DNA from: Desulfobacteraceae bacterium
Lineage (GTDB): Bacteria; Desulfobacterota; Desulfobacteria; Desulfobacterales; Desulfosalsimonadaceae
Direction: 5' to 3'
Assembly: GCA_021737565.1 (NCBI GenBank)
Contig: JAIPDS010000002.1
Location: 1 to 64,000 of the forward strand
DNA length: 64,000 nucleotides
Below are positions 46,093-63,169 of this stretch, piece by piece (within the stretch, counting starts at the first letter, position 1; every line of letters begins with the position of its first letter). The notes under the pieces are model-generated. The model did not search any database, was not told where the DNA came from, and saw nothing but the letters and a program-made list of their open reading frames with translations. The position numbers and the translations under genes were made by a program.

Positions 46093-46782
46093 TCAGGCAC
46101 TTTCTGCACTAAGATAGGCGTTTAAACGCCTTTCAATGCGCCGGAACAGCCACAGCACGCCGTATACTATTACAAGATAGAGTCCTGCAGCGAAAAGATA
46201 GGTTTCGTAGAAGGCGAAACTCCGGGTGGCGATTTCTCCGGCCACCCCGGTAATATCCATAACTGTTATTATTGATACAAGAGATGAAGCCTGCAAAAGG
46301 AAAATAACCTCGTTGGTATAAGAAGGCCATGCAATCCTGATGGCCCTGGGTATTATTATCCTGCGGTAAAGCAGCACCCCTGACATGCCGCAGGCGCGCG
46401 CGGCCTCGATCTCTCCGGATGGCACGCCCTGTATGCCGCCCCTGAAAATTTCGGTTGAATAGGCAGCCGTGTTTAATGTCAGGGATAAAACCGCGCAGAA
46501 CCAGGGGCTTTGAAAAAGGTGCCACAGGCCCACGGCCTGAAGCTGCTCCTGAAACTGACCGGAGCCGTAATATATCAAAAAGATCTGCACCAGCAGCGGG
46601 GTTCCGCGGAAATAAAAGGTAAAGGCATATACAGGGAGGGAAAGTATCTTTCCGGCCGAGACCCTTATTACCGACAGGGGGATGGCCATGCAGAATCCAA
46701 TGAAAACGCTAAGTGCTGTTATCTGTATGGTAACCCAGGAGGCATTCAGGAAGCGGGGAATACTTTCTATAATGATTTCCAT
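46093..46782 (-). CDS. Amino-acid ABC transporter permease
   Basis: FYFRGTPLLVQIFLIYYG, AAYSTEIFRGGIQGVPSGEIEAARACGMS EAA loop. Confidence 0.95.
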   Translation of the reverse strand: MEIIIESIPRFLNASWVTIQITALSVFIGFCMAIPLSVIRVSAGKILSLPVYAFTFYFRGTPLLVQIFLIYYGSGQFQEQLQAVGLWHLFQSPWFCAVLSLTLNTAAYSTEIFRGGIQGVPSGEIEAARACGMSGVLLYRRIIIPRAIRIAWPSYTNEVIFLLQASSLVSIITVMDITGVAGEIATRSFAFYETYLFAAGLYLVIVYGVLWLFRRIERRLNAYLSAESA

Positions 46783-46787
46783 GCCCT

Positions 46788-47477
46788 TTAAGCCCTCCTT
46801 ATTCCCCGTTCGGCACGTTTTTCAGCCCACTGCTGGACGATGTTCGAAATAATCGTGATGCCCAGGTAAATCAGGGATGCGGCCAGGAAAAAAGTAAAGG
46901 GCTTTCTTGTGTTTTTGGCAGCTATATCCGCGCTGCGCATCAGCTCTGGAAGCTGAATTACGGAAATAAGGGCCGTGGCCTTGATCAGAACCATCCAGAC
47001 ATTTCCAAGGCCGGGAAGGGCAAAGCGCATCATCTGGGGCAGCAGAATCCGCCGGAAAGTCAGGGGGCCGCTCATGCCGCAGGCGCGCGCAGCCTCGACC
47101 TGGCCCCTGGGCACGGCCAGGTAGGCCCCCCTGAAAACCTCGGTTGAAAACGCCCCGTAAATGAATCCTATGGTAAGCACTCCGGCAGCAAAGGGATTAA
47201 GCGAAATGTCTACAGGGTATCCCAAAGCAGCGGTTATGTCCTGGATCAGGGTGGGAAGGCCGTAATATACCAGCAAAATCAGAACCAGCTCGGGAATCCC
47301 GCGGATTACCGTGGTATATATATCTGCAAAAAAGCGCACCACCGGCGACGCCGACAGCTTGCAAAGCATCCCGATCAGCCCCAGAAAAATTGCTATAGCC
47401 ATGGAACTGACCCCCACATAGACAGTCAGCCTGGCACCCTGGAGCAAAAGAGGACCGTATCCTTCCAACCCTAACAA
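46788..47477 (-). CDS. Amino-acid ABC transporter permease
   Basis: RGIPELVLILLVYYG, STEVFRGAYLAVPRGQVEAARACGMS. Confidence 0.95.
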   Translation of the reverse strand: MLGLEGYGPLLLQGARLTVYVGVSSMAIAIFLGLIGMLCKLSASPVVRFFADIYTTVIRGIPELVLILLVYYGLPTLIQDITAALGYPVDISLNPFAAGVLTIGFIYGAFSTEVFRGAYLAVPRGQVEAARACGMSGPLTFRRILLPQMMRFALPGLGNVWMVLIKATALISVIQLPELMRSADIAAKNTRKPFTFFLAASLIYLGITIISNIVQQWAEKRAERGIRRA

Positions 47478-47535
47478 TGCAGAACCTTTTCCTGTTTATC
47501 GCCGCCCAATCCTTATACTGCCGGATGCTGTTTTA

Positions 47536-48315
47536 TCAGTCTCCGTAGACGTCGAAATCAAAATACTTGTCGTTTATTTTCTTGTATGTGCCATCTTTGC
47601 GGATCTGCTTTATAGCCTTGTTAAAAGCCTCGCGCAGCTCATCGTCTCCTTTTCTGACGGCAATGCCGATTCCTTCGCCGAACCATTGCTCATCCGTGTA
47701 GCCGGGGCCGACAAACTCGTAATCTTCTCCGGGCCCGGTATCAAGAAATCCCTCCTGGAGCACCACGGCATCCGCAAAAAGAAGATCCAGCCTGCCGGAG
47801 GTCATGTCCATGTTGGCCTCTTCCTGGGTGGCATAGGACCTTACATTCATAATATCCCCGAAGTTGTCGTTTATGAAATTGGCCGATACCGTGGCTCTCT
47901 GGACTCCCACGGTCTTTCCCTTCAATCCTTCTTTTGAAATCTCTATGTCATCATCCTTGTGCTTAACGAATCTTGCCGGGGTCTGGTAATATTTTTCAGT
48001 AAAGTCAACCCGTTTTTTGCGCTCCTCTGTTATGCTCATGGAAGCGATGATGGCATCGTATTTCTTGGCAAGAAGGGCCGGAATCATGCCCTCCCAGCTT
48101 TGGGTCACGAATTCGCATTCCATGCCGGCGGCCTCACACAGGGCTTCTGCTATGTCGATATCAAAGCCCTTCAGGTTGCCGTCCTTGTCCATGTAGTTAA
48201 AGGGAGGGTAGGCACCTTCGGTGCCGATCCTTACGACATCGTCTGCAACAGATGCCGTAGCTGAAAAAAGGATGCAGAAAACAAGCAACAGTAAAATGTG
48301 TAAATACCTTTTCAT
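47536..48315 (-). CDS. Polar/basic amino-acid-type ABC substrate-binding protein
   Basis: Signal peptide; VRIGTEGAYPPFNYMDKDGNLKGFDIDIAEALCEAAG. Confidence 0.95.
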   Translation of the reverse strand: MKRYLHILLLLVFCILFSATASVADDVVRIGTEGAYPPFNYMDKDGNLKGFDIDIAEALCEAAGMECEFVTQSWEGMIPALLAKKYDAIIASMSITEERKKRVDFTEKYYQTPARFVKHKDDDIEISKEGLKGKTVGVQRATVSANFINDNFGDIMNVRSYATQEEANMDMTSGRLDLLFADAVVLQEGFLDTGPGEDYEFVGPGYTDEQWFGEGIGIAVRKGDDELREAFNKAIKQIRKDGTYKKINDKYFDFDVYGD

Positions 48316-48369
48316 TTTTCCTCCAGATTCTTTGGGTTAAATTAACGGCGCTATCACTCCTGCTGTTTA

Positions 48370-49191
48370 TCAGAAAAACCGGGACAGAAACGCCCGACAG
48401 CGCTCTGATGCCGGTTTTTGGAAAATATAATCGGGAACCCCCTCGTCTTCTATTACGCCGCCGTGCAGGAAAACAACATGACTGGAGACCTCTTTTGCAA
48501 AACCCATCTCATGGGTGGCCATGATCATGGTGCGCCCCTCTTTTGCGATATCCTGAATCACCCGCAGCACTTCTCCCACCAGCTCGGGATCAAGCGCGGA
48601 GGTGGGCTCGTCGAAAAGCATAACATCCGGTTCCATGGCAAGTGCCCGGGCTATTGCGGCACGCTGTTTCTGTCCGCCAGAAAGATGGGCGGGATAATAA
48701 TGCGACCTGTCCGCAATCCCCACCTTTTCGAGGTAGGTCATTGCCTTTTGCCTGGCTTCTTTTTTAGGTGTTTTTAACACATGCACAGGCGCCTCGATTA
48801 CGTTTTCAAGCACCGTCATGTGCGACCAGAGGTTGAAATGCTGAAAGACCATTCCCAGCTTGGTACGGATCCGGTCCACCTGCCTGCGATCTGCTGGCAC
48901 TGTCTCTTTTCTGCGGTTTCTTGCAAGGCGGATATGCTCCTCGCCCACGTGAATCTCGCCGGAAGTGGGGATCTCAAGCAAATTGATACACCGCAGAAGT
49001 GTGCTTTTCCCGGAGCCCGAAGACCCTATAAGGGCTATCACGTCACCCTGGCGGGCAGTAAGCGATATCCCTTTTAAGACCTGGAGCCGGCCGAAATCCT
49101 TATACAGATCTTTTATCCTGACAGCGGAGGCCGGCAAGGTATAATTTTCCCCCGGATTGTTCACAATACAGGCGCCTTTAGCTAAGTTCAA
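48370..49191 (-). CDS. Amino-acid ABC transporter ATP-binding protein
   Basis: [54 protein letters not shown]. Confidence 0.95.
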
Positions 49192-49357: not shown

Positions 49358-50812
49358 TTATTCAGCCTCTTCAAGGATCCGGGTGATCCGGCTGCGCACT
49401 TCCTCCGGGATCCTTTCGGAGGGATCAGGCCGGCTGCTGATAAGGAATCGGGTCTTGTCCAGTATGCGCTGAGGCATGGAGGAAAAAACCGGGCCCGCGC
49501 TTTTGAGTTCTTCGGACAAATCCCCGGGGACTGCGGGATCATCGCCTGAAGGCGAAGGCTTTTTCCCGCTTTGTTTCGAGATTTTCCGGAAATCTCCTCC
49601 GGGACCTGCGGCCTGGATCTGCTTTCTGGCAAGGGTTTGTTCGTTTACTATCACCCCTTTTGCCATAAACCCGCTTTTTTCAATGATTTCGTCTGCAAGC
49701 ACGAGCTGAAAAACAGAGCCGCACATGCCCGACTCCAAAAACCCAACGTCATGGACCAGGCTGGGACCGCTTAGCATTGCTGAATGTATTGAAAGCGCAG
49801 ATTCAATTGCGGCCTGGGCGCCCATGGCCTTGGAATCGCTGCACCCGGCTGCTGAAAACACCGGAAATCCAAGGTACTCACCCATCTCTGTAAGACCTGC
49901 CTCAAGGCTTGGAAGCTCCGGTGCGCCGTAGGCAAACACAGCCTCCCTCATATCGAGTATGGACTGAGTTCCGCCTATTATTATGCAGGCCCCGGGATTA
50001 ATAGTTTGCGCGATAACCACTCCCATTATTGATTCTGCAAGGGTTACCGCAATGTGGGCAGCATGGGTGGCCGGAACCGTTCCGCCGCCTGTGCTTGCCG
50101 GGGCAAAAATCTGGGGGATGTTGTTTTCCGCGCAGTACATCACCTTGTCAATGGCGTTAAAATCCGAGAGCAACGGGGATATGGGCTCGTTGTAAAACAG
50201 ATAGTTCGGCTTGTGCTCAAATGCCTCGGTTCCGCCGGCCATAGCAATTCCTATCTTATGGATATCCCTGCAGTGCCGCCTGGAAAAGCACCAGGCAATC
50301 GGCGGCTTATCGGAATTTTGAATCATCTCGGCAAACTCGTAAAGCCCTTCCTTTCCCGCGGGCACATCGCTTACCAGCCCCAGGGACATGACAAAGCCTA
50401 TGGAGTCCAGAGCCCCGCAAAGGCCGGCCACCATTGCAGCATCCTGCCTGGTGTATTTCCTGCGCTCAAGCGTGAAGGGATCTATAAAATTGGGGCAGGT
50501 GGGGCCGGGACCGAAACTTGTGTATCCCTGCTCTATGCGCAGAGCCACCTCCCCGGTCCGGCTGTAGATGTTTGTTACCGGCGGCACCGAGGCAAGCGCC
50601 CTGTTTACAACATGGGAGGGTATATATACCCTTTCATTTCTAATCCTGCAGCCGTTTTGCTCCAAAAGCTCCCTGGCCCCGCTATGCTCCACCTTGACGC
50701 CCGTATGCTGAAGAATGGTAAGCACCTGGTTGAATATCAGCCGTTTCTGGCCCTCGGAGAGAAACGAGAACATTACATGCTGGTTTTCCGTAAGGTTGGT
50801 CCTTGTTCCCAT
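49358..50812 (-). CDS. MttB-superfamily (trimethylamine methyltransferase-like) protein, no in-frame amber codon
   Basis: Full-length 484-aa ORF; GYTSFGPGPTCPNFIDPFTLERRKYTRQDAAMVA, ASTGGGTVPATHAAHIAVTLAE, QTINPGACIIIGG. Confidence 0.88.
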   Translation of the reverse strand: MGTRTNLTENQHVMFSFLSEGQKRLIFNQVLTILQHTGVKVEHSGARELLEQNGCRIRNERVYIPSHVVNRALASVPPVTNIYSRTGEVALRIEQGYTSFGPGPTCPNFIDPFTLERRKYTRQDAAMVAGLCGALDSIGFVMSLGLVSDVPAGKEGLYEFAEMIQNSDKPPIAWCFSRRHCRDIHKIGIAMAGGTEAFEHKPNYLFYNEPISPLLSDFNAIDKVMYCAENNIPQIFAPASTGGGTVPATHAAHIAVTLAESIMGVVIAQTINPGACIIIGGTQSILDMREAVFAYGAPELPSLEAGLTEMGEYLGFPVFSAAGCSDSKAMGAQAAIESALSIHSAMLSGPSLVHDVGFLESGMCGSVFQLVLADEIIEKSGFMAKGVIVNEQTLARKQIQAAGPGGDFRKISKQSGKKPSPSGDDPAVPGDLSEELKSAGPVFSSMPQRILDKTRFLISSRPDPSERIPEEVRSRITRILEEAE

Positions 50813-50815
50813 GAT

Positions 50816-52264
50816 TTATCCCTCCTTCTGCCGGGCATCTGCCAGGGCCCGGAGCTCTTCTGCGAGTTTGGGGTCAAAGGGTTCCGGCGCGTACTCTTTT
50901 AAAATTTTTTCCCGTTTTTCTGCAGCCCGGACTGCCATGGTTTTTTTGCCTGCCTCAGCCCAGTTCTGATACACTGCCCTGTCAACAAGCTCGGGCCTGA
51001 ACCATTCCTGCCAGTGCTCAAGGGTATGGTCCTGGGTAAGATATTCTCCCCCTGGTCCCACTTCTGCTATAAGACCAGTTGCCAGGTATTCTTCCTCGGT
51101 GCTTATGCCCTTTCCGATCTGGCCTATCATTCTTATTATCTCATCACACACCACCAGGCTGTCCGGGCAGAAACCGGTGCCTCCCCTTATAAGGCCGGAG
51201 CCGTAAATAAGGTCCGCCCCTGAAAGAAAGGCATAATACAGCCCCGATACCCAGTCCGTGCCCGCGTCCTGGTCTATGCTTTCGGAATCGGTAATGCCTG
51301 CAGGAGAAAACATGGCAAGGCCCAGCCACTTGGAAACATCCGTATTGGCAGCCGCGCTCAAACCGAGCTGCGGAGCTGAAAAGGCGGGAGCATCTCCCGA
51401 GAGCCCCGCCGCTGTTGTCACACCTCCCCTAATAAGCGGCATGCCTGGATTTTGAAGATAGGAAAGTACTGATACCAGCATGGTTTCCGCAAGAGTTAAA
51501 ACCAGGGTTCCTGGAATGCTTTCAGGGGCCGTGACCCCTGAGACCGCGTTAGAAGCGCACACGCAAGGGATTTTGTGCTCCGCGCAGAACAGGATCTTTT
51601 CAGCCTCGGTCTCAGACAGGGTCAGCGGGGAATCAATCCCGCAATAACAGGCAAAAAGCGGGCCGAGCTGAAATTCTTTTTTCCCGCCTGATACAACACA
51701 CATCATTTCCCACAGGGTTTGAAGCTCCTTTCTGCCGGAGACTCCCAGAAGAAGGGGCTTGCAGGAGCCTTCCAGCAGGGCGGAAACGCACTTAAGATCC
51801 CATGAATCATTTTTCCCGGTCCCGGTCTTTAGATGACCTGCAATAAAATCAATACCTGTAAGATAATCGGCAAGCAGGGCGGCGTTGCGAACCTGCTCAC
51901 AAGCCGTGCCGCCCAGGGTGCCGTTCTTTTGAGGGAAAACAGGCCCCGCGCCGAATGCCAGTTCATCCTTCTGTAGCCTGACAGATCTTTCCCCTGTCCT
52001 GCCGGCAAGGGCTATTTTCCCGGGGTGCTCCCGCAGCGCCCTTTCCACCAGCACGGCGGGTATGCGCACCAGGCTTTCCCCTGTCACCGCAGCCTCGCTG
52101 CCTGCAAACAGGTCCAGGGCTTTCTGACTTTTTACCAGGGCGCCGTCGCTTTCTATTATCCCCAGGGCGTCAAAATAGATTCTTTCTATCTCGTCTTCTG
52201 ACAGCACCCGGAATTTGGGCGTGGTCTGAACGATTTCCCGTATCTTCATAAAACCCCTCCGCAA
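50816..52264 (-). CDS. Second MttB-superfamily protein, no in-frame amber codon
   Basis: 482 aa; AFGAGPVFPQKNGTLGG, AVSGVTAPESIPGTLVLTLAETM, YLQNPGMPLIRGG; stops 3 nt upstream of the next start. Confidence 0.85.
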   Translation of the reverse strand: MRRGFMKIREIVQTTPKFRVLSEDEIERIYFDALGIIESDGALVKSQKALDLFAGSEAAVTGESLVRIPAVLVERALREHPGKIALAGRTGERSVRLQKDELAFGAGPVFPQKNGTLGGTACEQVRNAALLADYLTGIDFIAGHLKTGTGKNDSWDLKCVSALLEGSCKPLLLGVSGRKELQTLWEMMCVVSGGKKEFQLGPLFACYCGIDSPLTLSETEAEKILFCAEHKIPCVCASNAVSGVTAPESIPGTLVLTLAETMLVSVLSYLQNPGMPLIRGGVTTAAGLSGDAPAFSAPQLGLSAAANTDVSKWLGLAMFSPAGITDSESIDQDAGTDWVSGLYYAFLSGADLIYGSGLIRGGTGFCPDSLVVCDEIIRMIGQIGKGISTEEEYLATGLIAEVGPGGEYLTQDHTLEHWQEWFRPELVDRAVYQNWAEAGKKTMAVRAAEKREKILKEYAPEPFDPKLAEELRALADARQKEG

Positions 52265-52627: not shown

Positions 52628-53581
52628 ATGGGAAAACTGTTTTCAACCAAACAGGTGGCCGAGTACCTGGGTGTAAACGAAAAAATGGTCTACACCATGA
52701 TCGCGGAAAAGGGCCTGCCTGCCTCCAAGGCAACCGGCAAGTGGCTTTTCCCCAAGCACCTGGTGGACCAGTGGATAGAAGCCCACACTGTAAACCTTTC
52801 AGGTGCAGCCGGGCCGGTGCCTCATGCAGAGGAGTTGCTCATAATCGCGGGCAGCAACGACCCCCTGCTTGAACAAGCCATAGGAGTCTTCAACGGAACT
52901 CATGAAGACAGCCTGGCGGTGTTCGGCAACCTGGGTAGTCTGGGAGGGATCCGCGCGTTAAAGCAGGACCTGTGTCACGTCGCCTCCAGCCATCTGATGC
53001 AGGAAGACGGAAAAGACTATAATTTCGGAATACTTGAAAAGCACATGAGCCCTGCTCCTGCTGTAGTCAACTTATGCAGAAGGAAACAGGGCCTGATTGT
53101 TGCGGCAGGAAATCCAAAAGGCATAAACAGCACTGCGGACCTTGGCAGGAAGGGAATCCGTGTGACAAACAGAAAACTTGGAACCGGCACCAGGCAGCTT
53201 TTTGATATGGAACTTAAAAATGCCGGCATAAAAGGCACAGGCCTAGAAGGATACGAAAATGAGGTCCAAAGCCACATGGACGCCGCGCTTGAAGTACTGC
53301 ACGGCAGAGCAAACGCTGCCCCCGGCATACAGCCGGCAGCAGAGCGCCTGGGACTGGAGTTTGTGCCCTGGCGGTGGGAAAGATACGACCTTCTAATCCG
53401 CAAGGAGCGCTTTTTTGACAAGCCGGTGCAGCGCTTTCTCGGGATGCTGGGCGAGGATGCCTTCAGGAGACTGGCGGCCGGATACAAAGGATACGATGTT
53501 TCGGCAAGCGGAAAGATGGTCTTTGCCGGACAGGAGAAAACAGACACCAATAAAACACAGACCCGGGAGGAAATGAAATGA
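52628..53581 (+). CDS. Excisionase-type HTH regulator fused to a periplasmic-binding-protein-like domain
   Basis: FSTKQVAEYLGVNEKMVYTMIAEKGLPASKATGKWLFPKHLVDQWIE then a TupA/ModA-like ligand-binding domain; overlaps tupA start. Confidence 0.88.
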   Translation: MGKLFSTKQVAEYLGVNEKMVYTMIAEKGLPASKATGKWLFPKHLVDQWIEAHTVNLSGAAGPVPHAEELLIIAGSNDPLLEQAIGVFNGTHEDSLAVFGNLGSLGGIRALKQDLCHVASSHLMQEDGKDYNFGILEKHMSPAPAVVNLCRRKQGLIVAAGNPKGINSTADLGRKGIRVTNRKLGTGTRQLFDMELKNAGIKGTGLEGYENEVQSHMDAALEVLHGRANAAPGIQPAAERLGLEFVPWRWERYDLLIRKERFFDKPVQRFLGMLGEDAFRRLAAGYKGYDVSASGKMVFAGQEKTDTNKTQTREEMK

Positions 53582-54420
53582 AGTCTTTTATCCGTTTTCT
53601 TATGCCAATGGTTCTTGCAGCAGCAATATCGGCAGTTCCTTGCCTTCCTGCTGCAGCGGGCGACAATGCCAGGCTGCTCATGGCAACCACCACCAGCACC
53701 GACAATACAGGCCTTCTTGAATACCTGGAGCCTTATTTCGAAGAGGCAGCCGGCATTGACCTGCGCTGGACCGCCACGGGTACGGGAAAGGCCCTTGAAC
53801 TGGGCAGAAACTGCGATGCGGATGTTTTGCTGGTCCATGCTCCGCCTGCGGAAAAAGAATTCGTGAAAAACGGATACGGGAAAAACCGCACACAGATCAT
53901 GTACAACGATTTCGTAATCATAGGGCCCAAGTCCGATCCGGCAGGCATAAAAGGAAAATCGGTATTGGGGACGCTTTCTGCCATAAAAGAAAAAGGTGCA
54001 AAATTTGTAAGCAGGGGGGATGACTCGGGAACCCATAAAAAAGAGCTTTCCCTGTGGGAAAAAGCAGGCCTGCAGGTGCCTGAAAAACAGAACTGGTACA
54101 TCCAGACAGGCCAGGGCATGCTGCCGAGCATAAATATAGCCGAGGAGCGCTCCACTTACATAATGACCGACCGGGGTACATATATCAAGTACGCCCATGA
54201 AAGAGGCGGGAACCCGCCTCTTGAAATAATGGTTGAAGGCGACCCTGTACTGCGCAATCAGTATAGTGTAATCCAGGTAAATCCTGAAAACTGCCCCAAC
54301 GTAAATGCTGAGGCGGCGCGCAAATTTTCCCGCTGGATGGCCGGACAACAGGCCCAGGATTTGATAGGCGAATTCAAGCTCATGGGGAAAACCCTGTTTA
54401 TCCCGAATGCCAGGCAATAA
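53578..54420 (+). CDS. tupA: Tungstate ABC transporter substrate-binding protein
   Basis: MATTTSTDNTGLLEYLEPYFEEAAGIDLRWTATGTGKALELGRNCDADVLLVHAPP; signal peptide. Confidence 0.93.
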   Translation: MKSFIRFLMPMVLAAAISAVPCLPAAAGDNARLLMATTTSTDNTGLLEYLEPYFEEAAGIDLRWTATGTGKALELGRNCDADVLLVHAPPAEKEFVKNGYGKNRTQIMYNDFVIIGPKSDPAGIKGKSVLGTLSAIKEKGAKFVSRGDDSGTHKKELSLWEKAGLQVPEKQNWYIQTGQGMLPSINIAEERSTYIMTDRGTYIKYAHERGGNPPLEIMVEGDPVLRNQYSVIQVNPENCPNVNAEAARKFSRWMAGQQAQDLIGEFKLMGKTLFIPNARQ

Positions 54421-54426
54421 AGCCCA

Positions 54427-55113
54427 ATGGACTTTATTCTGCAGGGACTAACCGAGGCTTTCCGGCTTCTTTTGGCAGGAGATGAAGAGACCTTTTCCGC
54501 AGTGGCGGCAACCCTTAAGGTCTCTTGTCTTTCCATGGCGGCAAGCCTTGCACTTGGACTGCCCCTGGGATTTCTCCTGGGATATCTTCGGTTTCCGGGA
54601 AGACGCAAGATCCGCATGGTGGTTGACACTCTTTTGTCGCTTCCAACGGTATTTATCGGCCTTATGGTATATGCCTTTGTTTCCAGCAGGGGACCGCTGG
54701 GAGAAATGAATCTTCTTTTCACCCTGCCCGGCATTGCTATAGGACAGACCATCCTGGCCCTGCCTATCGTGATCGCCCTTTCGGCTACTGCTGTTGAAAG
54801 TCTGGAGGCGGGCCTTCGCACAACTCTTCTTTCGCTCGGGGCCGGCAAATACAGGCTGATGACAGGCATCATGTGGGAGGCAAGGCACGCCATATTAGCA
54901 GCAGCGCTTACAGCATACGGCAGAGTTATGACAGAGGTGGGAATCTCCATGATGGTCGGAGGAAATATCAAGTGGCACACCAGGACCATTACCACAGCAA
55001 TTGCGCTTGAGACCGCCAAGGGCAAATTCGCCATGGGAATCGCACTGGGCCTGGTACTGCTGATGATTGCATTTGCTGTAAACGCCGGGGTTTCGTTTTT
55101 GCGCAGAAAATAG
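54427..55113 (+). CDS. tupB: Tungstate ABC transporter permease
   Basis: SLPTVFIGLMVYAFVSSRGPLG, GRVMTEVGISMMVGGNIKWHTRTITTAIAL. Confidence 0.93.
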   Translation: MDFILQGLTEAFRLLLAGDEETFSAVAATLKVSCLSMAASLALGLPLGFLLGYLRFPGRRKIRMVVDTLLSLPTVFIGLMVYAFVSSRGPLGEMNLLFTLPGIAIGQTILALPIVIALSATAVESLEAGLRTTLLSLGAGKYRLMTGIMWEARHAILAAALTAYGRVMTEVGISMMVGGNIKWHTRTITTAIALETAKGKFAMGIALGLVLLMIAFAVNAGVSFLRRK

Positions 55114-55124
55114 ACAGGCCGAAT

Positions 55125-56165
55125 ATGTCCCTGTACAGGCTTGAAAACATAGAGCAACGCTACGGCGGAAAAACCGTTCTTTCAATACCGGACTGGTCTG
55201 TTGCCGAAGGCACCATAACCGGGCTCTGCGGCCCTAACGGCAGCGGGAAAAGCACGCTTTTAAGGCTTCTCGGATTCACTGATTCCCCGGCCCGGGGCAG
55301 AATCTTCTTCAGGGACCGCGCAACCGATATCTATGCCGGAAACCTGCGCAAAAAAGCAACCTTGCTGCCTCAGGAATCCTACCTCCTAAAGCGCACGGTT
55401 TACAGAAACATCGCCTACGGCCTACGAATAAGAGGAGAGAAAAAAAACCAAAGGCAAAGGGTCGCACAGGCACTGTCGCTTGTGGGTCTGGATGCGGAAA
55501 GCTTTGCAGAAAGACCCTGGTATGCCCTTTCCGGCGGAGAGGCAAGAAGGGCCGCCATGGCGGCGCGACTGGTGTTAAACCCGGAGGTGCTACTTCTCGA
55601 CGAACCAACCGCAGGAGTTGACGCCCAAAGCGCCCAGATGATGAAGCAGGCCGCAGCAGACGCACATTTTAAAAACGGTGTTACGCTTGTTATTGCAAGT
55701 CACGATCTTCAATGGCTCGAAGACATCTGCACCGACATTTTTTACATGTTTGACGGGAAACTCCTTGGAAAGGGCACAAGGACCTTTATATTCGGACCCT
55801 GGGAAAAAACAGGAGATAACGGCGCCCTATGCAGACTTGCAGACGGGCAGGTATTTTTAGCAGAAAACGCGCCCAAAGATCCGGCCGGCGCAGCCGCAGC
55901 CATAGAGCCGGAAGAACTTAGCCTTCATTTGGAAAAACAGGATATTCCCCCGGAAAAAACAGCCGTGAAGGGAATTCTTGTTCGCCTTGCCCTGGAAAAA
56001 CACAGCGGAAGGTTAAGAGCCTCTATATCTGCAGGCCACACCGAGTTCATTGTTTACCCGGATCCAAAATCCATTCACAGAAAAGGATTTCTCCCCGGCT
56101 CGCCCGTATGGCTCGCATATACCCCGCAAAAAGTAAAATGGTTCGGAAAAGAAAGACGCCCTTAA
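55125..56165 (+). CDS. tupC: Tungstate ABC transporter ATP-binding protein with C-terminal TOBE-like extension
   Basis: [51 protein letters not shown]. Confidence 0.93.
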   Translation: MSLYRLENIEQRYGGKTVLSIPDWSVAEGTITGLCGPNGSGKSTLLRLLGFTDSPARGRIFFRDRATDIYAGNLRKKATLLPQESYLLKRTVYRNIAYGLRIRGEKKNQRQRVAQALSLVGLDAESFAERPWYALSGGEARRAAMAARLVLNPEVLLLDEPTAGVDAQSAQMMKQAAADAHFKNGVTLVIASHDLQWLEDICTDIFYMFDGKLLGKGTRTFIFGPWEKTGDNGALCRLADGQVFLAENAPKDPAGAAAAIEPEELSLHLEKQDIPPEKTAVKGILVRLALEKHSGRLRASISAGHTEFIVYPDPKSIHRKGFLPGSPVWLAYTPQKVKWFGKERRP

Positions 56166-56290
56166 CTGTTTTTGAATTTCGGGTCGCGCTCTGTTATACT
56201 GAAAATATCTTATCCCTGACCGGATCTAAAGATTCCGAAAGATCCTGTGCTTCAGAACTGCGGCAAATTTGGAAATACCGGAGGTTGCTC

Positions 56291-57334
56291 ATGGGTATTG
56301 AATTCAAAAGGCGGGACAAGGTCGCAAAATTTTTAAACCCTTTCAAGGATTTTGAGCTCTCAGAGGCCAAATGCCAAATCAGAAAGGACCCTCTTACAGG
56401 CAGAACCGGGCGCCTGGCTCATTTTGTGGGATTTAAGCCCCCGTCAGCGGATTTTACAAGGATCATCGAGGATTCTGAACAAAACTGCCCCTTTTGCCCG
56501 GAAAACGTGCTTAAAATAACCCCGAAATTCGATCCCGGGCAGATCCCTGAAGGAAGGCTAAAAAAGGGCGAATCCATCCTGTTTCCCAATCTTTTGCCCT
56601 ATGACGCTAACAGCGCGCTTGCCGTGCTGTGCAAAAAGCATTACAGGGCTCTTACGGATTTTACTCCCGGTATTTTCGTGGATGCCCTTGAAAACTGCCT
56701 TGACTACCTGGACAGGGTTATAGAAGACAAAGGCGGCACTTACGGCCTTGTGACCTGGAACTACATGCCTGCAGCAGGCTCCAGCCAGGTGCATCCGCAT
56801 TTTCAGGTCTATGCAACCCAAGAGCCCGGCAATTTTCTCCAGGCCATGCTCTCTTCAGGCAGAAAGTATATGCAGGAAAACGGCCGCACATACTGGGAGG
56901 ACTACATAAAGGCGGAAACAGATGCAGGCCAAAGGCTTATCACACAAGGCAAAAGCAGCGTATGGCTCACAGATTTCGTGCCCTTGAGCGCTCTGGCCGA
57001 TATAGTCGGGATCTTTCCGGAAAAACAGACCCTGTTTGACCTAAGCAATGCAGATCTTCGTGAAGCAGCGCAAATCCTTAACACTGCAATAGCTTACCTG
57101 GGGCAGCAGGGTGTCTACAGCCTGAATATGGGATGGATGCCCGCCCGTGAGACTGAAAGGCATCACTGGCTGCAGCTCAGGATATCGCCCAGGCTTTATC
57201 TGGCACCTCACGTGTGGTGCACTGAAACGCCTTCGCTGGTCTACCAGTACCAGGAATCTTTTATGATCTGGGCGCCCGAGGATACTGCAAAAGAGCTGGG
57301 TGAATTTGTTAAAAAAGCTGAAAGCGGGCATTGA
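56291..57334 (+). CDS. GalT/HIT-superfamily nucleotidylyltransferase-like protein
   Basis: CPFCPENV zinc pair, GSSQVHPHFQVYAT (HxHxQ active-site pattern), second-half HHWLQLRISPR. Confidence 0.78.
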   Translation: MGIEFKRRDKVAKFLNPFKDFELSEAKCQIRKDPLTGRTGRLAHFVGFKPPSADFTRIIEDSEQNCPFCPENVLKITPKFDPGQIPEGRLKKGESILFPNLLPYDANSALAVLCKKHYRALTDFTPGIFVDALENCLDYLDRVIEDKGGTYGLVTWNYMPAAGSSQVHPHFQVYATQEPGNFLQAMLSSGRKYMQENGRTYWEDYIKAETDAGQRLITQGKSSVWLTDFVPLSALADIVGIFPEKQTLFDLSNADLREAAQILNTAIAYLGQQGVYSLNMGWMPARETERHHWLQLRISPRLYLAPHVWCTETPSLVYQYQESFMIWAPEDTAKELGEFVKKAESGH

Positions 57335-57363
57335 CAAAACGGCAGGAGCAAGGAAAAAGGCAT

Positions 57364-58371
57364 ATGAATACAGAACTGCCGCAATTGCCGCCGCAGGCAA
57401 AATGTACAAGATGCAGGGGCAGGGCCGTGGTTTCCCTGCCTTCTCATAATTCCAGGTTCTGCGAGGACTGTTTTATCCATTTTTTTCAAACCGCTGTTAA
57501 AAGAGGTCTTAAAAAAGCAGGACCCGGGGAAAACAGTCCTCTTATGGTGGCGGTCTCCGGGGGCAAGGATTCTCTTTGCGCATGGTCTGTATTAAACGAT
57601 CTTGGCTATGAAACAAGGGGGTTGCATATAAACCTGGGCATTGAAGGCTTTTCCGAGGCTTCCAGGGAGGCTGTTGCTGAATTTGCAGCCTCCAGGGGAC
57701 TTTCCTGGTCGGAATACAGCCTTAAAAATGAATTCGGCTACAGCATGCCCGAAATCTACAGCATCCTTAAATACAAAATATGCTCTGTGTGCGGAAGGTT
57801 AAAAAGGCAGTTTTTAAACAGGCTCACCGCCAAGGAGAGCTATTCTTGCGTTGTTACCGGCCATAATCTTGATGACGAGGCCGCCCGCCTGCTCGGAAAC
57901 CTTATCGGAGACCGGCAGGAATTTGTCAGTCGCCAGTTTCCGTGGCTTCCTTCTCCGCACCCGAAAATCCCGGCTAAATTAAAACCGCTGCACCGGCTGG
58001 AGATAAAAGAAATCCTTGCATACTGCAAAATAAAACACATTACCCCCTCACGGGACGCGTGTCCGTTTTCCCGGGGTGCCACCAGCAACTATTTCGCAGA
58101 GGCCCTTGAATTCCTGGATAAAAAAATGCCGGGCACCAAACGCGGATTCCTGTTTTCCTACCTGCGCAAGCCAAAGGAACTGCGCCCCGCGGATAATTAT
58201 GTCAACTGCGCTGTCTGCGGGGAGCCGGCACTTTTTTCCACCTGCCCGGTATGCGGCATTAAAAAACGCATACAGGAAATAGAGGCAAAACGTTTTGCAG
58301 GACAAGCACGCAAATCAGCTACCGATGCCAAAGGGACGGAAGCGTTTTCGCCCCCTGATTCCAACCATTAA
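57364..58371 (+). CDS. TtuA/TtcA-family PP-loop ATPase (tRNA 2-thiolation-like)
   Basis: MVAVSGGKDSLCAWSVL PP-loop, KICSVCGRLKR, VVTGHNLDDEAARLLGNL, N- and C-terminal CxxC zinc fingers. Confidence 0.88.
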   Translation: MNTELPQLPPQAKCTRCRGRAVVSLPSHNSRFCEDCFIHFFQTAVKRGLKKAGPGENSPLMVAVSGGKDSLCAWSVLNDLGYETRGLHINLGIEGFSEASREAVAEFAASRGLSWSEYSLKNEFGYSMPEIYSILKYKICSVCGRLKRQFLNRLTAKESYSCVVTGHNLDDEAARLLGNLIGDRQEFVSRQFPWLPSPHPKIPAKLKPLHRLEIKEILAYCKIKHITPSRDACPFSRGATSNYFAEALEFLDKKMPGTKRGFLFSYLRKPKELRPADNYVNCAVCGEPALFSTCPVCGIKKRIQEIEAKRFAGQARKSATDAKGTEAFSPPDSNH

Positions 58372-58390
58372 CAACAAAGGAGGAAAAGCC

Positions 58391-59830
58391 ATGGGAATCC
58401 GCACCGCACAGCAGTACAAAGAAAGCCTGCGCGACGGGAGAAATGTCTACATCAGCGGTGAAAAGGTGGAAGACATCACGCAGCACCGGGTTCTGGGGGT
58501 CACTGTGGACACGGTCGCGGCCGGATATGAAATGACATCATCCGATAATCAGGAGATACGTGAAAAACTGGTTGCCAAACACCCGGAAACAGGAGAGCCA
58601 ATCAACCGTTTTTTCATCACCCCTCAAAATTCAGAGCAATTATTTGACAGAACCAGGATGATTCATCTCTTAATCGAGAACACCGGGGGGCTTCCCTTTG
58701 GAAAGGACATCGGCACGGACTGCCTTAATGCCGTCATGGCGGTAGCCCGGCAAATTGGAAACAAGCAGTATGAAGAAAACGCAAAAAACTTCCTGGAGCA
58801 TCTGCGCAAAAACGATCTTCACACCTGCGGTGCCGTAAGCTGCGTCAAGGGTGACCGATCCAAAGAGCCGGCCATGCAGAAACACCCGGATTACTATTTG
58901 CATGTTGTCGATAAAAACAAGGACGGCATCGTGGTAAAAGGCGCCAAGATGCACATCACCAGCGCTCCCAACGCAAACGAGATCATAGTGGTTCCAACGC
59001 GCCAGATGCGGGAAAACGAGGCTGATTACGCGGTAAGCTTTGCCATACCGGCAAACACCAAGGGTATCACCTTTATCTGCCGAAACGGCCGGGGCCCCTG
59101 GTCAGACCGGGAATTTCATCCCGACCGGCCTGTAAGGGAGCTAACAGAGGCCATGATCGTGTTTGACAATGTTTTCGTCCCCTGGGACCGGGTTTTTATG
59201 TGCGGCGAATGGCAGTATTCCATGCTACTTGCCTATACGTTTGCCACCTTTCACAGGTTTACGGCCATCAGCTACAAGATCCCGTCAGTAGAGGTCATGG
59301 CCGGCTGTGCGGTGGCGATGGCCAAATACAACGGCCTTGAAAAAGTCGGCCACATCCGCGACAAGCTGGCCAATATAGCCGCATACGTGGAAACCCTAAG
59401 GGCTCTTACCCGAGCTTCTGCCCTGGAACCGGTCATGCACGGCGATATTGCGGTTCCCAACCCGCTGGTAACCAACATGGCAAAGCTTCATTTCGCAGAC
59501 AACTACCACCAGTTCGTCAAGCTGATCCAGGACATCGGAGGAGGAATCGTTGCTACCTGTCCCGACAAGCGGGACTGGGATAATCCCGATATTCACGAAT
59601 ATCTTGAGCATTACCTGGGCGGCTCGGGAAAATACAGCACCATGGAGCGACTGCAAATGGTACATGAAACCATGCGGCACGTGTGCTCCCACGAATCGGC
59701 TTTCCACGAGGTCACAACCGTGCATGCAGAGGGCTCCATGGCGGCCCAGAAAATGATGATCCTCTACGAATCGCCGCTGGAGCGCTATGAAACCCGGGCC
59801 AAAAGGGCCGCCGGCATTATTGAATCCTGA
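58391..59830 (+). CDS. HpaB / 4-hydroxybutyryl-CoA-dehydratase-fold flavoprotein
   Basis: RTAQQYKESLRDGRNVYISGEKVEDITQH, DGIVVKGAKMHITSAPNANEIIVVPTRQM, MIVFDNVFVPWDRVFMCGEW. Confidence 0.9.
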   Translation: MGIRTAQQYKESLRDGRNVYISGEKVEDITQHRVLGVTVDTVAAGYEMTSSDNQEIREKLVAKHPETGEPINRFFITPQNSEQLFDRTRMIHLLIENTGGLPFGKDIGTDCLNAVMAVARQIGNKQYEENAKNFLEHLRKNDLHTCGAVSCVKGDRSKEPAMQKHPDYYLHVVDKNKDGIVVKGAKMHITSAPNANEIIVVPTRQMRENEADYAVSFAIPANTKGITFICRNGRGPWSDREFHPDRPVRELTEAMIVFDNVFVPWDRVFMCGEWQYSMLLAYTFATFHRFTAISYKIPSVEVMAGCAVAMAKYNGLEKVGHIRDKLANIAAYVETLRALTRASALEPVMHGDIAVPNPLVTNMAKLHFADNYHQFVKLIQDIGGGIVATCPDKRDWDNPDIHEYLEHYLGGSGKYSTMERLQMVHETMRHVCSHESAFHEVTTVHAEGSMAAQKMMILYESPLERYETRAKRAAGIIES

Positions 59831-59844
59831 GCCGGCTCAACTTT

Positions 59845-60197
59845 GATGGCTTCGTAAAAAGTCCAATATCTGCGTTGCACTGCATCCCTGCGGAATTTCG
59901 CGTACGATAAGTACGCTGCATTCCTCGGGATTTGCGCGCCTTGATCTTGAACTTTTTACTTTGCCATCTCAAAATTGACTTCCAAGGAAATCATTTTTTT
60001 GCGCTCTCACGAAATTGCACCTCGTTGCCCTGACGGCGGTGCGGAAAAGCGGGTTTCCGAGCGGAAATTGAGGCTCGACAAGGCTCCTGGAGCGAGGAAA
60101 CTCCTTTTTCGCACCGCCGATCAGCCAAGGTGCTTACGGATTTCCTTTCTGCAAAAAGGCCGCGTCAGCTGAATAAATCGCTTTTTACGAGACTGTC
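59845..60197 (-). repeat. MITE-like repeat copy 3 (inverted), interrupted by a ~200-bp insertion
   Basis: gatggcttcgtaaaaagtccaatatctgcgttgcac... matches the reverse complement of copies 1/2; distal end ctttttacgagactgtc separated by insert 59981-60182. Confidence 0.85.
59981..60182. mobile_element. Putative palindromic element nested in repeat copy 3
   Basis: Imperfect inverted arms 60017-60058 / 60096-60133 and outer aaggaaatc/gatttcctt; possible CT target duplication. Confidence 0.6.
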
Positions 60198-60687
60198 AAC
60201 TCTGGGCCTCCTCATGCCGCGGCACCGTCCAGGGCTTGCCCGCAAGCCGGCAGTAAAGCAAAACCAGCAAAAACGCCATGGTAAGTCCCAGATGCGCAAG
60301 AAGGAGCACTATTACGACCTGCGGTGAAAATGGGACAAAAAAGGTATTTCTGATTACAAGCAAAATGCCCGAGACAATTATGCCTAAAAGAATCGCCGCC
60401 CGCACACCGCCGGAGGCTGAAAGCCTCCGGTACTTGCGGGTTACAAGGAAAAATTCGGCTGCAAAATAGGCTGCGATCGCAAGGATAGCAGCAGCCCCCA
60501 GGTAATGGAGGAAATGGGTGGTATAGAATTCGGCAAGCCACCCCAGGCCCGGGATATCTGCTATATAATAGCGTTTGAAAATCGGCATCTGTGCAAACCC
60601 GGTAAGAGCAAGAAGAAACAGTATCAGGCCGTATGCGTAGTTAAGCTTCCGTTGGCTGCGGGCTGTGGTGTTGCTTCTTGTTTTCAT
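60196..60687 (-). CDS. Small integral membrane protein (possible cytochrome b-like subunit)
   Basis: Four hydrophobic segments, His in THFLHYLG and LAHLGLTM; overlaps the ferredoxin gene end. Confidence 0.65.
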   Translation of the reverse strand: MKTRSNTTARSQRKLNYAYGLILFLLALTGFAQMPIFKRYYIADIPGLGWLAEFYTTHFLHYLGAAAILAIAAYFAAEFFLVTRKYRRLSASGGVRAAILLGIIVSGILLVIRNTFFVPFSPQVVIVLLLAHLGLTMAFLLVLLYCRLAGKPWTVPRHEEAQS

Positions 60688-61673
60688 GATGCTTCTCCTT
60701 TATCTTTACCGGCTTGTCCGGATTTGTTGATAAAACTGTATGTCTTTACCGCTGCGGCGGCAATCCCGGCAAACGGGGCAATAAGCATGGCTGCAGTAAG
60801 GTTTTCGGCCTTGTCCATGGCATTGTCTGCGGGTGCAAGGTGCGGCCTGCCTGCGCCCTTCTCGATTGCGGAATTAAGATCCTCAAACGGCACCGGTGAT
60901 ACGTAGATTGTATTTGTACCGCCGTTTTCCGTCTCCCCGTAAATGTAGCCGCCGATCTCTTCTGCAATTTCATGGGCCTCCCTGATAATTTCGTTTCTCG
61001 GGCCGATCTTCTGCACATTTGCCGGGCAGGCCACGATACAGGCGGGCTTTTTGCCCCTGGCCACGCGTTCATAGCACCTGTCACACTTATACATCACTCC
61101 GTTTCCGGCAAAAGAGGGCATAATATCAAGATAAAGCCCTACCCCGGTCTGACGCTGGGGTATGCTCCAGGGGCAGACATTTCTGCATTTTGAGCCGCCC
61201 AGGCAAAGATCGTAATCAATCCTGGAAATCCCGTTTTTATACTGCCTGGCGGCCCCCCACGGGCACAGGTTTACGCACGGCGGATTAACACAATGCATGC
61301 ATCGCCTGGGGATATTGATCGTCTCTTTGCCGCCGTTTACCTCAACCTCTGCATGCTGAATATAAAGAAAGTTATACGGGGTCAGCCTGTCCCTTACGTG
61401 TCGCTTATCAGACCAGTCCTCCACCTTGACCCTGGAGGGATACATCTTTGGAAACGGCTTTTCAGGCTCCGGGAACTTGTGCCCGTTTGTCTCTCTGCAG
61501 GCTTCCACACAGGCGCCGCAACCGATGCATTTGCGGATATCGAGAAGGGTTGCAAGCTGCCCGTCGCCGCTGTTGCCTGCCGCGGCAACCGAAGGCACCG
61601 CAAGGGCTGCGGCAGACCCCGCAGCTGCAATACCTCCTTTTAAAAATGATCGTCTTGAAATCGACTCAGACAT
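60684..61673 (-). CDS. Tat-exported DmsB/HybA-like polyferredoxin (4x[4Fe-4S])
   Basis: SRRSFLKGG Tat motif; CIGCGACVEAC, CMHCVNPPCVNLCPWGA, CRNVCPW, CDRCYERVARGKKPACIVACPANV. Confidence 0.9.
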   Translation of the reverse strand: MSESISRRSFLKGGIAAAGSAAALAVPSVAAAGNSGDGQLATLLDIRKCIGCGACVEACRETNGHKFPEPEKPFPKMYPSRVKVEDWSDKRHVRDRLTPYNFLYIQHAEVEVNGGKETINIPRRCMHCVNPPCVNLCPWGAARQYKNGISRIDYDLCLGGSKCRNVCPWSIPQRQTGVGLYLDIMPSFAGNGVMYKCDRCYERVARGKKPACIVACPANVQKIGPRNEIIREAHEIAEEIGGYIYGETENGGTNTIYVSPVPFEDLNSAIEKGAGRPHLAPADNAMDKAENLTAAMLIAPFAGIAAAAVKTYSFINKSGQAGKDKGEAS

Positions 61674-62250
61674 GATCCACCTCGTTTGTTTGTTTGAAAC
61701 TTTGAATATTTTCTTTTTCTCCCCCTTCCATTTCGGCTTTTGCTTCAAGCATGGCGGATCTCAAAAGCTCCAGGCCGGATATAACCCGGTTTCTGCCGGC
61801 CGGGTCCAGTTTTTCAAGGATTTTTGCCTGCATTTGCTTCTGAAAGTCCTTAATCCGTTCGACCGCTCTCCTGCCTTCCGGTGTCAGGCGCAAAAGCCTG
61901 ACCCTGCCGTCTGCAGGATCAACGGCACTTTCAATTAGCCCTTTTTCATTCATACTATTAACAAGTTTGGTCACCCTGCTTTTAGCCACTTCCAGTTGTT
62001 CGGCAATCCCTTTTACAGTCAGATACCGCTCGCTGCCGAAAAGCATCAGGCACCGTATTTCAGAATACGGAAGACCGAATTTCCCGGCCTCGAAAAGCTG
62101 CCTGTCCTCGCAGCAGCGCCTGATGTCCTCGATCAGTACATTTAGCCGGCTGAGCTGGTACTCGGAAATCCTAAACTTTTGTTCGTATGTATTCCCATTT
62201 TTGTTCATAGTGTTAATTAATTTAATTACTAAAGACATTGCTGTCAACAA
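61666..62250 (-). CDS. MarR-family transcriptional regulator
   Basis: LTVKGIAEQLEVAKSRVTKLVNSMNEKGLIESAVDPADGRVRLLRLTPEGRR; overlaps next gene start. Confidence 0.9.
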   Translation of the reverse strand: MLTAMSLVIKLINTMNKNGNTYEQKFRISEYQLSRLNVLIEDIRRCCEDRQLFEAGKFGLPYSEIRCLMLFGSERYLTVKGIAEQLEVAKSRVTKLVNSMNEKGLIESAVDPADGRVRLLRLTPEGRRAVERIKDFQKQMQAKILEKLDPAGRNRVISGLELLRSAMLEAKAEMEGGEKENIQSFKQTNEVDHV

Positions 62251-62371: not shown

Positions 62372-63169
62372 ATGAAAATTGTTCGCTTTATAGACAGCCA
62401 GGGCAGCATATGCACAGGGGCAGATCCGGAAAACGGCCGGGCCGGCGTAGTGGAGCAGGCCGCAAACGGAACCTATGTTCCAACCGGGCAAACCGCGCAA
62501 ATAGCGCAATACCTGCCCCCGGTCGATCCCCCGGCTGTTTTGTGCATAGGATTAAACTACCGCCGGCATGCCGAGGAAACAGGCCAGGAGCTGCCGTCAT
62601 TTCCGGTGTTGTTCATGAAAAACCCGGCATCGGTAATCGGCCACGAACAAAACATAGTGCTGCCGGAATCATGCCGCAAAAGAGAGCAGGCTGATTATGA
62701 GGCGGAACTGGCGGTGGTTATTGGCAAAGCTGCAAAAAATGTTTCCGCCGAAGAAGCCCTTTCATACGTGAAGGGCTATACCATAGGAAACGACGTCTCG
62801 GCCCGGTGGTGGCAGAGACATGCGGGAAGCGGCCAGTGGGTCAGGGGAAAAAGCTTTGATACATTCTGCCCGGTCGGGCCGGTGATGGTAACAGCAGACG
62901 AAATCCCCGACCCCGGGAACCTGGAAATCTCCTGCAGCCTTAATTCACAGATCATGCAGCAAAGCAATACCTCTGATATGATCTTCTCTGTTGCCCAAAT
63001 AATTGAATACCTCTCAGAGGACACGACTCTTTTGCCGGATACCGTAATTTTAACCGGAACCCCGAGCGGGGTGGGGGTTGCCAGAAAACCCCGGGTCTTT
63101 TTAAAACCGGGGGACAGAATAGAAATGAGCATAGAAAAAATAGGCACCCTGGCAAACACTGTGGTTTAA
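62372..63169 (+). CDS. Fumarylacetoacetate hydrolase family protein
   Basis: VLCIGLNYRRHAEETG, DYEAELAVVIGKAAKNVS, GYTIGNDVSAR, TGTPSGVGVARKP. Confidence 0.94.
   Translation: MKIVRFIDSQGSICTGADPENGRAGVVEQAANGTYVPTGQTAQIAQYLPPVDPPAVLCIGLNYRRHAEETGQELPSFPVLFMKNPASVIGHEQNIVLPESCRKREQADYEAELAVVIGKAAKNVSAEEALSYVKGYTIGNDVSARWWQRHAGSGQWVRGKSFDTFCPVGPVMVTADEIPDPGNLEISCSLNSQIMQQSNTSDMIFSVAQIIEYLSEDTTLLPDTVILTGTPSGVGVARKPRVFLKPGDRIEMSIEKIGTLANTVV

Follow-up and report, generated by a model that had tools for sequence, protein, structure and literature searches.

A clade of AbfD-related flavoproteins without the full set of [4Fe-4S] ligands carries a glutamate that points to acyl-CoA dehydrogenase-type chemistry

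The 4-hydroxybutyryl-CoA dehydratase AbfD serves as a model of cluster-dependent radical catalysis on a flavin, and it possesses a side activity as vinylacetyl-CoA isomerase; in the acyl-CoA dehydrogenases, the catalytic base is the Glu of a YEGT-type motif. The cluster ligands of AbfD are C99, C103, H292 and C299, and the catalytic residues of T. thermophilus HpaB are R100, Y104 and H142. AbfD (K14534, EC 4.2.1.120) is used as a survey marker of 4-hydroxybutyrate CO2-fixation cycles (e.g., PMC9802188). An AbfD-like elimination without an AbfD sequence has been proposed for the acyl-CoA-dehydrogenase-like flavoenzyme BbuA, a gamma-butyrobetainyl-CoA trimethylamine lyase with a reported identity of ~10% or less to 4-hydroxybutyryl-CoA dehydratase (PMC8364193).

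The window, i.e. the whole stretch of 64,000 nucleotides of a Desulfobacteraceae bacterium of the sulfate-reducing type that was analysed (contig JAIPDS010000002.1), contains at 58391..59830 (+) the gene of a ligand-poor flavoprotein of the AbfD/HpaB fold, with an ATG at 58391, a stop at 59830, a product of 479 aa and a Shine-Dalgarno-like sequence AAAGGAGG at 58376..58383 (+). Pfam matches extend along the entire protein (HpaB_N, 6e-84; HpaB, 5e-52), PF02770 is matched weakly (23.5 bits, below the 33.3-bit cut-off), and the full acyl-CoA dehydrogenase set of PF02771, PF02770 and PF00441 was not obtained in the Pfam search. The confident AF2 model (pLDDT 93.6) has AbfD (1u8v) as its best PDB match with a TM of 0.91, followed by HpaB-type monooxygenases (TM ~0.82-0.89) and then by acyl-CoA dehydrogenases, to which the Foldseek match is partial (TM ~0.44-0.48, rmsd ~9-14). 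The host draft genome of 2.65 Mb encodes seven HpaB/AbfD paralogues including this one, as well as dsrA, ETF and 14 acyl-CoA-dehydrogenase matches, and has a single flavin-reductase gene, located on a different contig. Among the matches listed, the closest named orthologues belong to Desulfobacterales/Desulfatitalea MAGs.

The first-pass annotation had proposed that the protein seems to lack the [4Fe-4S] ligands, with the His kept and a Cys lost, and that it is accordingly unlikely to be a classical 4-hydroxybutyryl-CoA dehydratase; both proposals are borne out by alignment to the structure-solved AbfD (1u8v) and to the N. maritimus 4-hydroxybutyryl-CoA dehydratase (6vjr). Residues 101-106, LPFGKD (58691..58708, +), take the place of AbfD C99-F-Q-R-C103, so that two Fe-S ligands are lost: C103 is aligned with D106, and C99 with L101 or P102 depending on gap placement. 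H288-R289 (59252..59257, +) corresponds to AbfD H292-R293, and Y295-K296 (59273..59278, +) to C299-K300 with loss of the third Cys ligand; one of four ligands is thus kept (H288) and three are gone. In the same alignment the catalytic E455 of AbfD is matched by T442. Despite these differences, AbfD and the window protein have in common the fold (TM 0.89-0.91 for 1u8v and 6vjr), H292-R293, K300 and the KGDR and KxH motifs. H288-R289 is invariant in the ligand-poor clade described below (92/92) and in AbfD-type sequences (23/23), and K153, R156, K186 and H188 are likewise common to both clades. Position 106 is acidic in 85 of the 92 clade members and Cys in six, this acidity being partly selected because one of the collection-search patterns allowed only D, C or E there. 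The ligand loss recurs in all 14 orthologues with complete sequence in the alignment, which all have both cysteines of the window protein discussed below, and the two traits are therefore more than chance.

When the genome collection was scanned with an alignment of ligand-poor sequences as query, at least 80 loci were retrieved. They represent 15 or more phylum-level groups, which among the matches listed include Desulfobacterota, Chloroflexota, Spirochaetota, Poribacteria, Latescibacterota, Nitrospinota, Myxococcota, Actinomycetota, Acidobacteriota and one Lokiarchaeota MAG; no relatives were found on viral contigs. In a tree of 121 sequences, 92 form a monophyletic, phylum-spanning, ligand-poor clade (UFBoot 100; FastTree support 0.90) that includes the window protein and is sister to the AbfD clade (n=25; UFBoot 100; FastTree 0.98), the two together being set apart from the HpaB enzymes. 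The window protein thus falls outside the AbfD clade and does not cluster with HpaB. No description of the ligand-poor clade was found in the open-access literature, and as far as that literature shows it is apparently a large, undescribed group; a paper on benzene activation (PMC13101534) was discarded as a source on the clade, since AbfD appears there merely as a chemical analogy.

Sorted by ligands, the seven host paralogues are of three kinds: L004 and L005 have all four ligands and are closely related to AbfD, the AbfD-like L006 and L007 also have four, and the window protein, L002 and L003 lack the full set. L006 and L007 lie in tandem (G000:C101:29724-32680), carry HGGGS without E455 and form a separate branch on the AbfD side, where the ligand sets of L028 (rearranged Cys segment) and L030 (Met for H292) are altered as well. 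An in-frame TGA flagged in two AbfD-type matches proved to be the terminal stop only. The L003 kind is a subgroup of six ligand-poor sequences (L003, L015, L034, L114, L124 and L129) representing a further active-site variant, with a single Cys at position 106 (that of AbfD C103) and Lys or Arg for Tyr295, E447 and H288 being retained.

The feature that is more informative than the C-x4-C on which the first-pass annotation had focused, and which that annotation missed, is Glu447 in the motif H445-A-E447-G-S (59723..59737, +), at which position AbfD has Ala or Gly according to the alignment. The AbfD-type sequences combine the Cys ligands with HG[AG]GS, and the ligand-poor clade an incomplete ligand set with an acidic residue; this position of H-[AG]-E-G-S is occupied by 91 Glu and one Asp in the 92 clade members and by Ala or Gly in 23 of 23 AbfD-type sequences; E447 is also invariant in a 58-member clade alignment, and its position was part of none of the collection-search patterns. 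The acyl-CoA dehydrogenases of the host end in IYEGTSQIQK, GEGTSEVQR or IYEGTSEIQK, and when they are compared with the clade by global hhalign, E447 coincides with the Glu of IYEGTSQIQK, while R289 meets an Arg that is conserved in them. Local hhalign of the C-termini reproduces this register both for the clade (E 7e-4), the alignment being short, with a low probability of 27% and a preceding loop that is much longer in the clade, and for AbfD, in which Ala faces the Glu (E 2e-3). Against the PDB, the clade profile reaches the rat short-chain acyl-CoA dehydrogenase (E 1.3e-4). The likeness to this enzyme (1jqi) thus comprises homology of the middle domain, E447 on the Glu of Y-E-G-T and R289 on the conserved Arg, whereas the window protein has longer N- and C-terminal segments and is globally a member of the AbfD/HpaB family. 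In the AF2 model E447 is found, as expected, in the loop linking helices 434-445 and 450-460, and as judged from the sequence it would be the Glu of a [Y/x]-E-G-[T/S] motif before the last helix. The hhalign scores are modest singly, and the argument is carried by the agreement between the two clades together with the invariance of E447. E447 points to a match with the catalytic Glu of the acyl-CoA dehydrogenases, and hence to what would be known acyl-CoA chemistry on an unexpected scaffold.

Gene neighbourhoods were evaluated using 118 contiguous same-strand proteins from ~50 clade loci, which are not strictly independent, the control being 118 ORFs that lie far from these loci on the same contigs. 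SDR proteins (22/118) and AMP-binding CoA ligases (9/118) adjoin the clade genes, neither family being among the 25 commonest of the distant ORFs (lowest count listed 2); acyl-CoA dehydrogenases are not enriched (4/118 versus 3 in the distant ORFs). Considering the CoA-ligase and SDR-type neighbours, an acyl-CoA is the likely substrate of the clade. At the orthologue locus L054 the gene string reads SDR, CMD, CoA ligase, orthologue, Liv-type permeases, binding protein and ATPases, and a further CoA ligase, and this placement, with an acyl-CoA ligase on one side and a branched-chain-type ABC transporter on the other, suggests an imported carboxylic acid as substrate. A 3-hydroxyacyl-CoA dehydrogenase gene is located near the orthologues L053, L055 and L062, and clade members on Rhodococcus plasmids, which are of the H-A-E-G-S type, adjoin CoA ligases, a racemase or an acyl-CoA dehydrogenase.

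Within the window, a TtuA/NcsA-like PP-loop gene (57331..58371, +) lies 20 bp upstream and is likely to share one transcript with the gene under study. It is preceded by a GalT-like gene of the HIT superfamily with weak matches and no Pfam match (56192..57334, +), and further upstream by genes for an HTH/PBP regulator and a TupABC-type tungstate transporter (52628..56165, +), the permease and ATPase of which are assigned from their location and sequence alone. Of the orthologue loci examined, only that of the nearest genome (L051) retains the GalT-like and TtuA-like genes, so that the upstream genes were given no functional weight and a functional link to the tungstate, TtuA-like or GalT-like genes was rejected. 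The pair is followed in L051 by a gene of 114 aa, and a gene of the fumarylacetoacetate-hydrolase family (62372..63169, +) is also present near the L051 orthologue. Two adjacent MttB-family methyltransferase genes (49358-52264, -) have uninterrupted reading frames and apparently are therefore not pyrrolysine enzymes; amino-acid-type ABC transporter genes (46093-49191) adjoin them on the same strand (-). Co-occurrence of the MttB genes with the gene under study was dismissed, as they are on the opposite strand and absent from the orthologue loci. At 60196-61748 (-) are genes for a TAT-signal, multi-[4Fe-4S] HmcB/HybA-like protein and for a 163-aa protein without Pfam match, and a catalytic subunit is not obvious nearby.

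Because the cluster is lost and a dehydrogenase-type Glu stands at the matching position, the clade probably performs a simpler acyl-CoA chemistry. The reading that we prefer, with a probability of roughly 0.55, is that the window protein is a cluster-less FAD enzyme performing acyl-CoA-dehydrogenase-type alpha-proton abstraction, most likely for acyl-CoA desaturation. FAD would be bound in the AbfD/acyl-CoA-dehydrogenase fold with the acyl-CoA thioester held over the flavin; E447, at the position of the dehydrogenase catalytic base, would remove the alpha-proton, the beta-hydride would be passed to flavin N5 and onward, most likely to ETF, and an alpha,beta-unsaturated acyl-CoA would be the product. 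H288-R289, together with the D106/Y295 pair that would fill the former cluster site, may bind or polarise the substrate. Against desaturation it must be said that the H288 retained from AbfD could be equally fit for isomerisation, that the immediate neighbours of the window gene (tungstate transport, TtuA-like, GalT-like) do not belong to CoA metabolism, and that both the C-terminal alignment and the Foldseek match to acyl-CoA dehydrogenases are, as given above, limited in extent.

The retained histidine bears on the next most probable reading, a cluster-less acyl-CoA isomerase or lyase catalysing a redox-neutral double-bond shift, comparable to the vinylacetyl-CoA isomerase side activity of AbfD, or the elimination of a good leaving group, by means of FAD, H288 and E447. 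AbfD as sister clade and the shared H288-R289 and K153/R156/K186/H188 argue for such an enzyme, and BbuA, for its part, eliminates trimethylamine from gamma-butyrobetainyl-CoA (PMC8364193); yet AbfD E455 is replaced by T442 and the clade has a dehydrogenase-type base instead, and we consider this reading unlikely, if worth entertaining. A 4-hydroxybutyryl-CoA dehydratase working without a cluster, or with one ligated differently through C146/C151, could be argued from ~30% identity and a TM of 0.91 to AbfD and from the two extra cysteines, but is hardly credible given that three ligands are missing clade-wide, that C146/C151 are not retained beyond the orthogroup, and that four-ligand copies are already present in the genome.

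A two-component, HpaB-type flavin monooxygenase acting on phenols would agree with the shared Pfam families and fold, with the database name of clade members (4-hydroxyphenylacetate 3-hydroxylase family) and with the origin of some of these from aerobes, e.g. Rhodococcus. However, identity to the HpaB oxygenase components (2yyg, 9lft) is ~26-28%, the clades are separate in the tree, and R100, Y104 and H142 are aligned with K105, C111 and G147; the NCBIfam HpaB equivalog cut-offs are also missed (206 versus 480 and 117 versus 885 bits). The oddity of an O2-dependent role in an anaerobe, raised on first reading, stands since the genome carries dsrA, and with the lone flavin-reductase gene on another contig a monooxygenase is very improbable. 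Ligand loss, and nothing else, would fit a non-catalytic or decayed paralogue, the least probable of these readings considering that full-length orthologues from several genera are 77-90% identical with unchanged active-site residues, in a clade of 92.

The first-pass annotation was borne out in so far as the protein is neither an AbfD nor an HpaB, but the reading supported here is an acyl-CoA-dehydrogenase-like active site on an AbfD scaffold, and a role of the C-x4-C as key to a new chemistry is not supported. The two cysteines in C146-G-A-V-S-C151 (58826..58843, +) are indeed aligned with acidic residues of AbfD, D146 and D151, the latter being invariant (TDP) in AbfD-type sequences, which at position 146 have 17 Asp, 3 Gly, 2 Cys and 1 Val (n=23). 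Both occur together in the 14 complete orthologues and otherwise only in L077 and L078, whereas each is also present without the other (C146 in 7/92 and C151 in 1/92 ligand-poor members), and 75 of the 92 have Asp at 151. A cluster site was discounted, and a new metal site is unlikely, because there are two cysteines only, too few to stand in for a four-ligand cluster, and these are not strictly linked. By motif the C151 segment is the counterpart of T-E-P in acyl-CoA dehydrogenases, a segment located near the flavin in that family, and C151 may possibly have a tuning role. It is a speculative and rather improbable extension that the clade gained its Glu independently when the cluster was lost (or that AbfD lost the Glu on gaining the cluster) and that C151 in the orthogroup would support a thiol-tuned flavin chemistry on acyl-CoA foreign to AbfD and to classical dehydrogenases, e.g. 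a cluster-free radical elimination.

The need of AbfD for its cluster can best be asked with a natural cluster-less relative, and since a single scaffold here carries either of two active sites (cluster plus Ala versus no cluster plus Glu), direct swaps become testable. Cluster-less members turn up across many uncultured phyla, with a Lokiarchaeota MAG among the matches listed, and this also matters for AbfD annotation: the ligand-poor clade is probably mislabelled in databases, one Rhodococcus member carrying the label 4-hydroxybutyryl-CoA dehydratase, and a check of the ligands and of H-x-E-G-S would separate such members from AbfD. No misannotation is claimed for the SBR1093 dehydratase, which clusters with Bradyrhizobium (PMC4195664), because a Bradyrhizobium plasmid copy (L147) has all four ligands. 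One clade member (L100) is situated on a contig labelled as a Klebsiella pneumoniae MAG and groups with members from uncultured Binatia/Proteobacteria MAGs, this contig being probably mis-binned or mislabelled.
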